Positions 33,679 through 51,327 of a stretch of DNA of 64,000 bases are shown piece after piece (positions within the stretch are counted from its first letter, which is position 1; every line of letters starts with the position of its first letter). The position numbers and the translations under genes were made by a program. The DNA is from a virus: IMG/VR virus record IMGVR_UViG_3300032308_001297, positions 98,365-162,364 of that record; one strand, written 5' to 3'. Under the pieces are notes generated by a model. The model had not been told where the DNA came from. It worked only from the letters and a program-made list of their open reading frames with translations, and ran no database searches.

Positions 33679-34245
33679 CTACTCATTATTAATAACATCA
33701 ATCATTATCTGCATCATTTTGTCTTTATCATATTTCACAAAAGGAGTATATTTTACCACTTTCATTCGAACTTCGTCCCAAATTGGGTCGTATTCTAATT
33801 TGGAGTCCCAGTTCTGTAATATACCATGACTATTAACAAAAATACAAAGAGTCTCTAAACTTATTTCTCCTGCCAAATATAACCTAAGAGCAGCTGGATG
33901 TTGACCCTCTAACTTTGGCTCATCGAATATTTTCCAAAATTCTCTTTTAAAATTATAAGTCAGAGACTGTTGACGTTTTTTCCAGGCGCTGAAAATTCTA
34001 TCTGCTTCTTCTGAATACGCTAGATCTCTTATCCAAAGTTTTGGGTTTTCAGAAAGATTGGCAACCAGAAAATCATGGTAATCAGGTCTTTTAGCAAGTT
34101 TCTCAAAAAATATTTTATCTTTTCTATTCTGAAAGGAAGACTGTTTTAATCCAGTCTTCCCGTTATACTTTATGTAATCGTATGTTGGTTTGGTGAAGTG
34201 ATTTTTGATAGCGACATAATCTTTATACGCTTCGAAGGCTGACAT
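33679..34245 (-). CDS. 59: Replicative helicase loader gp59
   Basis: 188 aa (T4 gp59: 217). Family pattern: FEAYKDYVAIKNHFTKPTYD, YIKYNGK, FQNRKDKIFFEKLAKRPDYH, DFLVANLSENPKLWIRDL, and FDEPKLEGQHPAALRLYLAG with ISLETLCIF. gp59 loads the gp41 helicase on gp32-coated DNA. As in T4, it lies in the gp32-gp59-gp33 cluster. Its first 76 bases overlap the 3' end of the metalloprotease-like gene. Confidence 0.82.
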   Translation of the reverse strand: MSAFEAYKDYVAIKNHFTKPTYDYIKYNGKTGLKQSSFQNRKDKIFFEKLAKRPDYHDFLVANLSENPKLWIRDLAYSEEADRIFSAWKKRQQSLTYNFKREFWKIFDEPKLEGQHPAALRLYLAGEISLETLCIFVNSHGILQNWDSKLEYDPIWDEVRMKVVKYTPFVKYDKDKMMQIMIDVINNE

Positions 34246-34743: not shown

Positions 34744-34751
34744 TATTTATA
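34744..34751 (-). promoter_or_regulatory. Late promoter box TATAAATA
   Basis: Exact late box on the minus strand inside the end of gp33, 29 bp before the metalloprotease-like gene start at 34715. Confidence 0.55.
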
Positions 34752-34965
34752 TTGGAAGTCTTGCTCCACGCTTAAGAATATTGAGATTTTCAGCTTCGGC
34801 TTGGATTTTAGATTTCATGGCCGGATCTTTTTTTATCCAATAGGCTGCAGTCTCTATTTCCAAGCCGTTTTTTTCACACCAAAAAACCACCGCATCTATA
34901 TACTCTATATTTTTATCTTTACAGAGTTTTTCAACTTCTTCTACGAAGCCTGAATTTTTGAGCAT
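34747..34965 (-). CDS. 33: Late transcription co-activator gp33-like
   Basis: 72 aa, shorter than T4 gp33 (112). The segment YIDAVVFWCEKNGLEIETAA, YWIKKDPAMKSKIQAEAENL followed by NILKR is the conserved part of cyanophage-type gp33. gp33 binds the host RNA polymerase flap and links it to the sliding clamp at late promoters. The gp32-gp59-gp33 order supports the call, as do the TATAAATA boxes in the window. Confidence 0.72.
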   Translation of the reverse strand: MLKNSGFVEEVEKLCKDKNIEYIDAVVFWCEKNGLEIETAAYWIKKDPAMKSKIQAEAENLNILKRGARLPI

Positions 34966-35130: not shown

Positions 35131-35535
35131 TTAATCCTTAATTGTGATTGTCGTAGGTTCGCCTTTCGTCATAGTGTAAAGAATAGAGGCATTATCTGGG
35201 TGCAAACGAACGCAACCATGAGAAGCAGGACGCCCCAGATTACCTGTATGAGGAGTAGCGTGGATAGCAAATCCACCAGAAAAGAAAATAGAGTGTGGCA
35301 TCGGCGCATTGTCATACTTCTTTGAATAGTGCATTAGATGATAAAAATAAGGATGGAAAGTTCCTGTTGGGGTGTAATAACCCTTTCTAGCAGTAGATAC
35401 TGGCCACTGCTCAATCAACTCTCCATCTTGGTAAACAGACATAGACTGATGACGTTTAGAAACAACAACATGATAATCTGCAAACGCTGAAGTTGAAATG
35501 AAAACTGCAGCGAGAACAATCAACAATCTTTTCAT
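35131..35535 (-). CDS. Secreted L,D-transpeptidase (YkuD family)
   Basis: 134 aa from the ATG at 35535 (AGGA at six bases); the upstream extension is not needed. Residues 1-19 are a signal peptide (MKRLLIVLAAVFISTSAFA). Residues 20-134 form a compact YkuD domain with the active-site block IHATPHTGNLGRPASHGCVR: His92, Ser105-His106-Gly107-Cys108 with Cys108 as nucleophile, then Arg110. Such enzymes make 3-3 or Braun lipoprotein-type cross-links in the periplasm. In a phage it could alter or strengthen the host wall, or block superinfection; this is inference. Confidence 0.85.
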   Translation of the reverse strand: MKRLLIVLAAVFISTSAFADYHVVVSKRHQSMSVYQDGELIEQWPVSTARKGYYTPTGTFHPYFYHLMHYSKKYDNAPMPHSIFFSGGFAIHATPHTGNLGRPASHGCVRLHPDNASILYTMTKGEPTTITIKD

Positions 35536-35543
35536 AATATATC

Positions 35544-35654
35544 CTAGTGGTTGTGGTTCTGTTTCTTCCAGATCCAAGAAGTTAAGCGTAATAGATTTTG
35601 GTGAATTGCATTAACGAAAGAACTATTCCAGAACCAGTGATTGTGTCTTGACAT
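35544..35654 (-). CDS. Very small His/Trp-rich ORF, 36 aa
   Basis: ATG at 35654 follows GGAGAACTAA. Encodes SRHNHWFWNSSFVNAIHQNL and a His/Lys/Trp-rich end (IWKKQNHNH). It ends nine bases before the transpeptidase start and directly follows tRNA-Arg. Function unknown. Confidence 0.4.
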   Translation of the reverse strand: MSRHNHWFWNSSFVNAIHQNLLRLTSWIWKKQNHNH

Positions 35655-35673
35655 TTAGTTCTCCTTAGAATGG

Positions 35674-35747
35674 CGATCCCGGCACGATTCGAACGTGCGA
35701 CCTACTGATTAGAAGTCAGTTGCTCTATCCTGCTGAGCTACGGAACC
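35674..35747 (-). tRNA. tRNA-Arg (UCU anticodon)
   Basis: Full cloverleaf in 74 bases: acceptor GGTTCCG with CGGGATC, D-arm GCTCAG...GAGC, anticodon arm ACTGA-CTTCTAA-TCAGT with anticodon TCT, T-arm GCACG-TTCGAAT-CGTGC. CCA is not encoded. It reads AGA, which an AT-rich phage uses often. It sits 35 bases after the tmRNA hairpin, so both RNAs may be cut from one transcript. Confidence 0.93.
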
Positions 35748-35781
35748 ATTATCAGTATTATACTTCATTACGTATGAAAAG

Positions 35782-35813
35782 GCAAGTTGTTTCTGTTTCT
35801 AGGGACAACTTGC
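35782..35813 (-). terminator. Hairpin at the 3' end of the tmRNA coding piece
   Basis: 9-bp stem GCAAGTTGT / ACAACTTGC on the minus strand, then CTTTTC. It can be a terminator, a processing signal or the last helix of the coding RNA. Confidence 0.5.
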
Positions 35814-35826
35814 AAACCCCAATGGA

Positions 35827-35874
35827 TCATGCTGCTAGAGCAAATGTTCCAAATGATGCATCGTTATCGTTGGC
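35827..35874 (-). other. tmRNA proteolysis tag reading frame
   Basis: Fifteen codons GCC AAC GAT AAC GAT GCA TCA ... CTA GCA GCA followed by TGA give ANDNDASFGTFALAA, counting the resume alanine. The AxLAA end is the classical degradation signal seen by ClpXP. Confidence 0.88.
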
Positions 35875-35999
35875 ATCTAACGTTTGTCTTTGGTCTCCTT
35901 AAACCTTTACCACACCAGTCGATCCTATTTCTGGCCCCCAAAAAACACCGTAATGTGCTTTGGTGGACCAGTCGGGTACTGCCCCCGAGTCCTGAATGA

Positions 36000-36206
36000 T
36001 TATTTCGTTTCTCTCAACGACCTCGACAATATATTTATCTTTTTCCAACTCAACTGTCCTTCAGTGGAATAACCAATATAGACTTCGCCTGTTTCCATAT
36101 CAGTAAGTTTCCACTTTTCAGGACATTTAGTTTTGACTGTTAAAATTTTAGATTGTTCTAATTCTAATACTTCTTCTCCAGAAAGTAAAGTTCTTTTTTT
36201 CATCAT
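36000..36206 (-). CDS. Small protein, 68 aa
   Basis: Encodes KKRTLLSGEEVLELEQSKIL, TVKTKCPEKWKLTDMETGEV and YIGYSTEGQLSWKKINIL; a small beta-rich fold is likely. Starts two bases after the oxygenase stop and ends at the tmRNA acceptor piece. Unknown function. Confidence 0.5.
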   Translation of the reverse strand: MMKKRTLLSGEEVLELEQSKILTVKTKCPEKWKLTDMETGEVYIGYSTEGQLSWKKINILSRSLRETK

Positions 36207-43608: not shown

Positions 43609-45210
43609 TTAATCCTGACCATCGTAAACATTTTCTTTTAGATAATCATACATAGTAGGACAATCTTTAACGATTTCTTTCCACTCAGCTTTTTTCTTAT
43701 CAAGATTATCGGCTGCATTCTTGAACCTTTCTTGCCATTCTTCTAAAGAAAGATCATTATATGCGCAAATAGCATCTATGTCAGTTGGAAAATAATTCAT
43801 ACCAGAAGCAATATATGGTATTCCACTCATTCCACCAAATCCAAAATTCTCCATCTTGGCGTCTGCAGCCCTTGTGAAGGCGCTATCAATAGATCTATCG
43901 ACAATTTTCATTTCTTCGCCGAAATTTCTACTACCAATATCTCTCCAATAAGGAGTATCGTCTCGATGAGACAAAGCGTAATGTAAAGCCACGAAATCCG
44001 CAAAATCTTTGAAGTATTTTCTACATGCAAAATTATAAACGTCTATGTCCCACTGACTAACATATCCTTCGGGATCTCTGTTAAGAGTGCGAACCATTCT
44101 CATGACAAACTCATGAACGCTTAACAAACCATTACTTTCTAACGGCTCAATAAATCCAGCAGACAATCCAATTGCTGCTACGTTTTTAACCCAAATACGT
44201 TCATGAATACCAACACGTGATTTGATGTTCTTGAATTTGATCCCTTGATTATGGAAATCCATCTCATCATCAAAGTGGCCAGTACCACGTAGATACTCTT
44301 TAAATTCTTCTAGTGCATCTTCATCGCTAATATATTTGTCGGAATAAACATATCCAGTCCCTATGCGACTCCACAAAGGAATTGTCCAAACCCATCCATT
44401 ATTGATGGCGTGACAGTTTGTATATGTAATCATTTCTCTACGTTTGTCGACATAAGGAATCTGAGCAGCCCAAGCAGAATTATTAGGAAGAATATGACTT
44501 AAAGAAATAAACGGTTCTTTTAAAGCTCCAGCCATGAGAATGGATCTAAAACCTGTGCAATCGATGAATAGATCTGCTGTAACCCTTTCGCCATTATCTA
44601 ACTGAAGAAAATTAATACCATTTTCGTCATCATAATCAACCATTTTTACTTCTGCTAATATATTCTTCACTCCTCGAGGGATAGAATATTCTGTTCTCAA
44701 CCAATTAGCAAATTTGATTGCATTAAAATGGTAGGCAGTATCTGTTCTGAATTTATAAGAAGGTAGAACACTATCTACTGAAATTTTATTTTCATTCACG
44801 AGTGCCATGATAGGGCACAAACAATCAGCATAATCGCTAGTTGGAGTTTCTGGGTATAAAAACTTTTTAAAATACCAATCATTCAGCTTTGCAACATTGC
44901 CGTCTGTGTTAACTGATCCAAACGGATAATGAAAAGCGCCAGCGCCTTTTTTATAAAAATCTTGAAATCTAATAGAAAGTTTGTAGGTTGCATCTGTAAT
45001 CTTCATGAAATCTTTATCTTTGATCTCAAGAAGTTTTAGCCAAGCATTGATATGCCCTAATGTGCTTTCTCCAACACCAACTGTTGGAATATTCGGTGAT
45101 TCGATTAATGTAATTTTTTTGTTTGGAAATACTTTAATTAACGTAGCAGCAGTCATCCATCCAGCTGATCCACCACCAACAATCACAATTTCATTAATTT
45201 TCTTGCTCAT
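43609..45210 (-). CDS. Flavin-dependent tryptophan halogenase-like protein
   Basis: 533 aa from ATG 45210 (GGGGTG upstream). FAD motif GGGSAGW at 12-18, VGVGES at 44-49, candidate catalytic Lys77 in DATYKLSIRF (position of the PrnA lysine), family motif WxWxIP in NNGWVWTIPLW, and IGLSAGFIEPLESNGLLSVH with the conserved Glu-Ser. Length is in the PrnA/RebH range (about 520-540). All key residues are present, so it is probably active. It needs reduced flavin from the host, since no reductase is seen nearby. Substrate could be tryptophan, an indole product or a peptide. Confidence 0.9.
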   Translation of the reverse strand: MSKKINEIVIVGGGSAGWMTAATLIKVFPNKKITLIESPNIPTVGVGESTLGHINAWLKLLEIKDKDFMKITDATYKLSIRFQDFYKKGAGAFHYPFGSVNTDGNVAKLNDWYFKKFLYPETPTSDYADCLCPIMALVNENKISVDSVLPSYKFRTDTAYHFNAIKFANWLRTEYSIPRGVKNILAEVKMVDYDDENGINFLQLDNGERVTADLFIDCTGFRSILMAGALKEPFISLSHILPNNSAWAAQIPYVDKRREMITYTNCHAINNGWVWTIPLWSRIGTGYVYSDKYISDEDALEEFKEYLRGTGHFDDEMDFHNQGIKFKNIKSRVGIHERIWVKNVAAIGLSAGFIEPLESNGLLSVHEFVMRMVRTLNRDPEGYVSQWDIDVYNFACRKYFKDFADFVALHYALSHRDDTPYWRDIGSRNFGEEMKIVDRSIDSAFTRAADAKMENFGFGGMSGIPYIASGMNYFPTDIDAICAYNDLSLEEWQERFKNAADNLDKKKAEWKEIVKDCPTMYDYLKENVYDGQD

Positions 45211-45241
45211 TTTACACCCCAAAATACATTAAGAACGATTA

Positions 45242-50953: not shown

Positions 50954-51190
50954 TTAGTCATTATCACCTTCTATATGTGGATGGCCAGGAACCGAATCAC
51001 TATCATCGTCTTCTGGCTCTAATTCCTCTATTAACTTTTTACAACGTCTCTTCCAATCATCACGCTGCCACTGAGCCTTCTCATACGAGAGCTCGTGATA
51101 ATCGTTAGCTATAAAGTATACTAAATTTTTGTACTTTTGTAAACGATTAAGTTCAACTTTAAGATCTTCAATTGAGCTTACGCTTTCCAT
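50954..51190 (-). CDS. Small helical early protein, 78 aa
   Basis: ATG at 51190 after AAGGAG at six bases. Encodes ESVSSIEDLKVELNRLQKYK, NLVYFIANDYHELSYEKAQW, QRDDWKRRCKKLIEELEPED and an acidic end. Coiled coil likely. Overlaps the preceding small gene. Unknown. Confidence 0.5.
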   Translation of the reverse strand: MESVSSIEDLKVELNRLQKYKNLVYFIANDYHELSYEKAQWQRDDWKRRCKKLIEELEPEDDDSDSVPGHPHIEGDND

Positions 51191-51327
51191 CCCCATCTCC
51201 TTATCCATATTGGCCCGAAGTGATATGAAATGTATGGGTCTCCAGAGTTGAACCTTGGTGTTCTACCGATCTCCCAGAATTTAGGGTTCCACAACCAATA
51301 GATCTCTGTCTTGCGATTTAGTAACAT
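51178..51327 (-). CDS. Small Trp/Arg-rich protein, 49 aa
   Basis: ATG at 51327 after AGGAGG; overlaps the upstream stop as TAATG. Encodes LLNRKTEIYWLWNPKFWEIG, RTPRFNSGDPYISYHFGPIW and IRRWGWKA. Six Trp in 49 residues. It may be a small structural or inhibitor protein. Unknown family. Confidence 0.5.
   Translation of the reverse strand: MLLNRKTEIYWLWNPKFWEIGRTPRFNSGDPYISYHFGPIWIRRWGWKA

Follow-up and report, generated by a model that had tools for sequence, protein, structure and literature searches.

A permuted two-piece tmRNA gene beside a late-promoter motif in a T4-like phage, and small protein genes in the spacers of related viral tmRNAs

Permuted two-piece tmRNA genes have already been described in phages. 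tmRNA has been reported in 402 of 18,146 phages (133 unique structures, 53 of them two-piece, mostly marine or aquatic) (PMC9004378), and a 2025 database holds 79 unique phage tmRNA sequences (PMC11915505). The Methylophilales phage Melnitz EXVC044M carries a two-piece permuted ssrA (MZ577097, 45984-46436) upstream of gp33, gp59 and a gp32-like gene (PMC9004378). Pelagiphages HTVC008M and Mosig also have a permuted tmRNA (90.6 and 93.6 bits, respectively); in HTVC008M, taking the genome as circular, it lies about 2 kb ahead of gp59. Genes located in a precursor segment that is removed are known as well: group I intron tmRNAs contain homing endonuclease genes, and a permuted tmRNA contains a tRNA gene in its spacer (PMC11915505). 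For permuted spacers, the same work lists one tRNA gene and one repetitive element and does not mention protein genes (PMC11915505). A search of the open literature, with most subscription papers and all preprints outside its scope, found no report of spacer ORFs in permuted tmRNA.

The window, a stretch of 64,000 nucleotides from a 162,364-base virus record with T4-like genes, contains a further gene of this kind on its minus strand. ARAGORN calls a permuted tmRNA with the tag ANDNDASFGTFALAA. Rfam alpha_tmRNA (RF01849) matches at 36022-35781 with 101.5 bits (E 1.5e-26; cut-off 50 bits), and tmRNA_permuted (RF04321) matches with 97.8 bits (cut-off 47 bits). The segment is confirmed as a permuted, alphaproteobacterial-type two-piece tmRNA gene, in the order acceptor piece, spacer, coding piece (Table 1). 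The first-pass annotation had proposed such a gene, phage-encoded and with its own degradation tag, and each part of this proposal is borne out: the covariance score, set there as a possible refutation, lies far above threshold, helix 2 pairing between the two pieces is present, and the tag frame is complete. The gap of 23 bases that it described is exactly 23 nt (35960-35938). Its span of 35782-36000 located a real gene but left out about 22 nt at the 5′ end of the acceptor piece, as well as the promoter motif (36038-36032).

The 7-bp acceptor stem forms between GGGCCAG (from 35937) and CTGGTCC, as first noted, and is followed by ACCA; position 3-70 is G-U. G3-U70 is the identity element for alanyl-tRNA synthetase. 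The two pieces also pair through GGTC and AAAC in the acceptor piece with GACC and GTTT in the coding piece. Relatives’ sequences diverge upstream of GGTC at 36022, in support of the acceptor piece as given in Table 1. The tag ends in the hydrophobic ALAA.

Table 1. Features of the tmRNA locus in the window and of related loci (window positions unless a locus is named)
Feature	Position	Strand	Evidence or remark
T4-type late promoter motif ATAAATA (GATAAATAT)	36032..36038	-	9 nt upstream of acceptor piece
Acceptor RNA piece, 62 nt (helix 2 5′ strands, T-arm, acceptor 3′ strand CTGGTCC, encoded ACCA)	35961..36022	-	Rfam, pairing, covariation
Intervening segment, 23 nt, small hairpin, without ORF	35938..35960	-	sequence
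Coding RNA piece (GGGCCAG acceptor 5′ strand, GGATCGAC D-loop analogue, helix 2, tag frame, 3′ pseudoknot)	35781..35937	-	ARAGORN, Rfam, covariation
Tag reading frame ANDNDASFGTFALAA-TGA, Ala resume codon GCC	35827..35874	-	ARAGORN, sequence
3′ pseudoknot	35782..35820	-	stems GGG/CCC and GCAAGTTGT (35813-35805)/ACAACTTGC (35790-35782)
tRNA-Arg(TCT)	35671..35747	-	same tmRNA-then-tRNA-Arg arrangement in L204
gp33-like late-transcription coactivator	34747..34965	-	conserved tmRNA neighbour, downstream; Pfam PF16805 E 1.5e-17
gp59-like helicase loader	33679..34245	-	downstream; PHROG 269 E 7e-54
68-aa ORF	36000..36206	-	3′ end overlaps acceptor piece and contains tmRNA promoter motif
49-aa ORF, homolog of spacer gene family (FNSGDPYISYHFGPIWIRR)	51178-51327	-	13/19 identical residues, E 3e-8, single comparison
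Spacer protein genes, many unrelated families	L211:11615-11859	-	also L262, L275, L305, L321, L421, L433
Spacer protein genes, many unrelated families	L238:1572-1739	+	
Candidate 54-aa ORF in tmRNA spacer of isolated phage (Melnitz)	L197:46077-46218 (MZ577097)		GGAG ribosome site; candidate peptide MFKWLSKTR...; overlaps annotated SsrA

Melnitz is like the window in its TATAAATA just upstream of ssrA, in a tag ending in ALAA and in the site of the gene. It differs in the tag itself (ANDNYVPVDYALAA as against ANDNDASFGTFALAA) and in its spacer, 142 nt versus 23 empty nt in the window, and additionally has TTGACA and a reported glutamine riboswitch. The tags and acceptor stems of HTVC008M and Mosig differ from those of the window. 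The alphaproteobacterial two-piece ssrA (RF01849, with Caulobacter as the reference) shares the architecture and the alpha_tmRNA match; the window’s gene differs from it in having a phage late-promoter motif, a clade found in viral contigs only and no SmpB gene in the record. ARAGORN also calls permuted tmRNAs that are unannotated in their records (L191, L192, L199, L193, L495, L496, L497). Phages with such unannotated tmRNAs are Ruegeria vB_RpoS-V10, Roseobacter DSS3P8, Rhodobacter RcXuper and RcSimone-Hastad, Xanthomonas X1, Stenotrophomonas DLP_6 and Acinetobacter BUCT628.

The phage genome around the tmRNA is T4-like, and the gene occupies the gp33-gp59 site. The minus-strand order is 2OG-Fe(II) oxygenase, 68-aa ORF, tmRNA, tRNA-Arg, YkuD domain, gp33-like coactivator, 199-aa ORF, gp59-like helicase loader and gp32-like protein, and this gp33-gp59-gp32 synteny is common to Melnitz and many other viral tmRNA loci. 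The 68-aa ORF encodes a conserved small protein; its predicted structure (pLDDT 79) has no significant fold match in the PDB. A promoter-like element, TTGCCT-17-TATAAT, lies upstream of tRNA-Arg(TCT) at 35785-35757 (minus strand), its -35 hexamer overlapping the 3′ arm of the tmRNA pseudoknot. The same phage carries a tryptophan-halogenase family gene (43609-45222, minus strand); the gene with the YkuD L,D-transpeptidase domain lies at 35131-35577 (minus strand).

Comparison within the clade points to selection on the RNA. The clade pattern matches 19 further viral contigs; these contigs, the window and L188 contain 15 distinct RNAs between them. None of the acceptor and T-stem pairs examined is lost in these 15, and two-sided changes occur at acceptor pairs 4-69, 5-68 and 6-67 and at T pairs T1 and T2. 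Because the extraction selected for G in acceptor positions 1-3 and 7 and for TCC on the 3′ side, it is acceptor pairs 4-6 that carry the information. In helix 2b, A-U gives way to G-C, again on both sides. Thirteen of the 14 helix-2 pairs form in all 15 RNAs and the last in 6, window included; 9 of the 15 have G-G at one pair of helix 2a. The second pseudoknot stem is wholly swapped for other complementary sequences across relatives, and a CCA-ended 7-bp acceptor stem with G3-U70 is found in 15/15. The compensatory changes in acceptor stem, T-stem, helix 2 and pseudoknot, together with the invariant G3-U70, indicate that the tmRNA is under selection. The RNA pieces of L122 and the window are near-identical up to the pseudoknot, and their spacers are unrelated (62 vs 23 nt), as expected if the spacer is discarded. 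The L122 tag is identical to the window’s, and clade tags vary around ANDNxxPFxxALAA. One clade member, L212 (7255-7317, plus strand), has an altered T-arm (GTGGATTTGCGACTCCAC; 63 instead of 62 nt) and may be a decayed or variant copy.

The promoter position is conserved as well. TATAAAT is the T4 late promoter core that has been applied to T4-like marine phages (PMC3037559, PMC9004378). In the window, the motif NATAAATA stands at the promoter position of the tmRNA (36038-36032) as a bare ATAAATA core preceded by G. All 21 clade members have an ATAAATA 9-11 nt upstream of the acceptor piece, despite differing DNA beyond it. The late motif is not enriched across the whole window (25 found vs 32 expected), so the case for the motif is one of position and conservation.

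The wider set of viral tmRNAs gives the same picture. The first-pass annotation called tmRNA genes rare in phages, a view that is not supported: strict patterns each find them in at least 120 viral contigs, and at least 277 distinct viral permuted tmRNAs were extracted in which acceptor and T-stem pair fully and the tag is intact; 267 of them have enough upstream sequence. Some tag strings of this extraction begin with residues that do not belong to the true tag, so the strings were not taken as tags. The viral permuted tmRNAs L052, L056, L014 and L026 have tags that are unusually long or odd (AKKSTTFASILPVKVERVSLVQEALAASA, ANKRALGFADLTVGMSKLRLAA). ATAAATA peaks near -75 from CCA in 159 of the 267 (~60%), vs a background of 1.6-1.9%, and is almost lacking at this position on the opposite strand. 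It is present in 118 of 202 independent upstream contexts. Judged by these sequence counts, the late core is the general and commonest element of viral permuted tmRNA promoters, and in the window it fits a role late in infection.

Expression early in infection, with recycling of host proteins, is the main alternative and is considered unlikely here. An early promoter is reported upstream of Melnitz ssrA, and its authors proposed early expression (PMC9004378). A composite of TTGAC[AT] placed 15-18 nt (nearly always 17) before NATAAATA occurs in 98/267 viral tmRNAs, which points the same way and suggests that many promoters could serve both early and late phases. In the window, however, no -35 element was found at the tmRNA promoter position; across the viral set, no element is commoner than the late core, which 49/267 have without TTGAC[AT]. 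Recycling of host proteins is also at odds with what tmRNA does, as it marks stalled ribosomes and not selected host proteins.

The window tmRNA is probably a working phage ssrA gene, expressed late and serving ribosome rescue. We infer its working as follows. A single precursor transcript would start near 36026 at a gp33/gp55-type late promoter; read-through from upstream genes might also contribute. Host tRNA-processing enzymes would cut the precursor at the encoded CCA and at G1, the 23-nt spacer would be thrown away, and the acceptor stem and helix 2 would hold the pieces together. Alanyl-tRNA synthetase would charge the RNA via G3-U70. No SmpB gene was found in the 162-kb record, which may be incomplete; without one, the phage tmRNA would need host SmpB. 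With host SmpB and EF-Tu, it would enter ribosomes stalled on broken mRNA, add ANDNDASFGTFALAA to the stalled product and release the ribosome; LAA would mark the product for ClpXP-type proteases. The phage would probably gain free ribosomes late in infection, when mRNA fragments are plentiful. That the phage tmRNA replaces or supplements host trans-translation, as the first-pass annotation suggested, is plausible.

The missing SmpB gene would also suit a decoy role, in which the RNA would titrate SmpB and so block trans-translation in the host; the tRNA-like-only RNA of mycobacteriophage DS6A is the suggested precedent (PMC4131195, PMC11915505). This reading is improbable: a DS6A-type decoy has no tag frame, whereas the window’s frame is complete, and tag frame, stop codon, helix 2 and pseudoknot, none of which a decoy needs, are intact and conserved. 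tmRNA genes often serve as sites of integration (PMC9004378, PMC11915505), but that this one is a functionless remnant, left by integration or by passive capture from a host, is hardly credible given the long-term compensatory evolution, the same site in diverse T4-like phages, the phage promoter motif and the absence of the clade 20-mer from the genomes searched. Neither that 20-mer nor a 25-base clade pattern had a match in 84,980 bacterial and archaeal species genomes, a search by exact patterns that can miss diverged relatives; recent capture from a sequenced species is accordingly unlikely.

Many related tmRNAs have an ORF in the spacer, unlike the 23-nt, ORF-free spacer of the window; L211, L238 and L275 are examples. 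The tmRNA spacer of L211 contains a homolog of the window’s 68-aa ORF that continues into the coding piece, and in L238 another homolog occupies the spacer of a different tmRNA type. What sets these nested genes apart from the cases in PMC11915505 is that they are small protein genes in the permuted spacer, a combination of which that paper makes no mention. Among the matches listed, 130 of the 192 spacers that are 60 nt or longer contain an ATG ORF of at least 18 aa after a Shine-Dalgarno-like site (shuffles, mean 31). A stricter test required the ORF to lie within the spacer, with up to 15 nt beyond its end allowed. By this test, 39 of 84 non-redundant spacers of at least 120 nt, among the matches listed, contain a ribosome-site ORF of at least 35 aa, compared with a mean of 0.8 (max 3) in shuffles, 1.0 (max 6) in shuffles keeping the last six bases and 0 in the reverse complement. 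Spacer lengths in this sample were set by the searches, and some of the IMG/VR contigs may be cellular.

Codon-level evidence is consistent with protein coding. Spacer-ORF families with clearly divergent members have pN/pS of 0.1-0.33 in frame, and their other two frames are mostly without excess of silent change. The MCRHN... family and one pair, with pN/pS of 0.87 and 1.03, respectively, look non-coding and are not counted as support. The largest family has 52 members among the matches listed. In tblastn against isolate phages, one protein of this family (fam 0) and one of fam 1 (MNWDWHW) had no match. Most spacer-ORF contigs are from T4-like phages: at least one PHROG marker is found in 96 of the 130 loci, with a PDDEXK exonuclease on the upstream side in 67 and, on the downstream side, gp33 in 78 and gp59 in 66. 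In 49 of the 130, the spacer 5′ end is predicted to be at once ribosome site and arm of the stem extending the acceptor stem, an arrangement not seen in the largest family; TAAGGA and AAAGGAG are 5′ arms of this double kind. The stop codon of the nested gene often falls one base before the tmRNA cleavage site. Free-standing homologs of some nested genes occur near tmRNAs, and the window phage has two free-standing homologs of spacer genes (36000-36206 and 51178-51327).

The gap between the tmRNA halves is very probably a standing slot for small protein genes in a large group of aquatic T4-like phages; in the window phage this slot is empty. Since the ribosome-binding site often doubles as a stem arm, translation and tmRNA maturation may be mutually exclusive, or processing may release a ready-made mini-mRNA.

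Because phage two-piece tmRNAs are already published (Melnitz; PMC9004378), the window tmRNA is a new member, one with an empty spacer; strictly, the novelty belongs to the gene class, in its promoter and its spacer genes. As far as could be found, both the general position of the late promoter and the presence of protein genes in the spacers of relatives are new. A late-promoter position kept in more than 100 independent contexts makes late ribosome upkeep, as against early host-protein recycling, directly testable. If the nested protein genes are expressed, one transcript would be both structural RNA precursor and messenger, and folding and translation would compete for the same bases.
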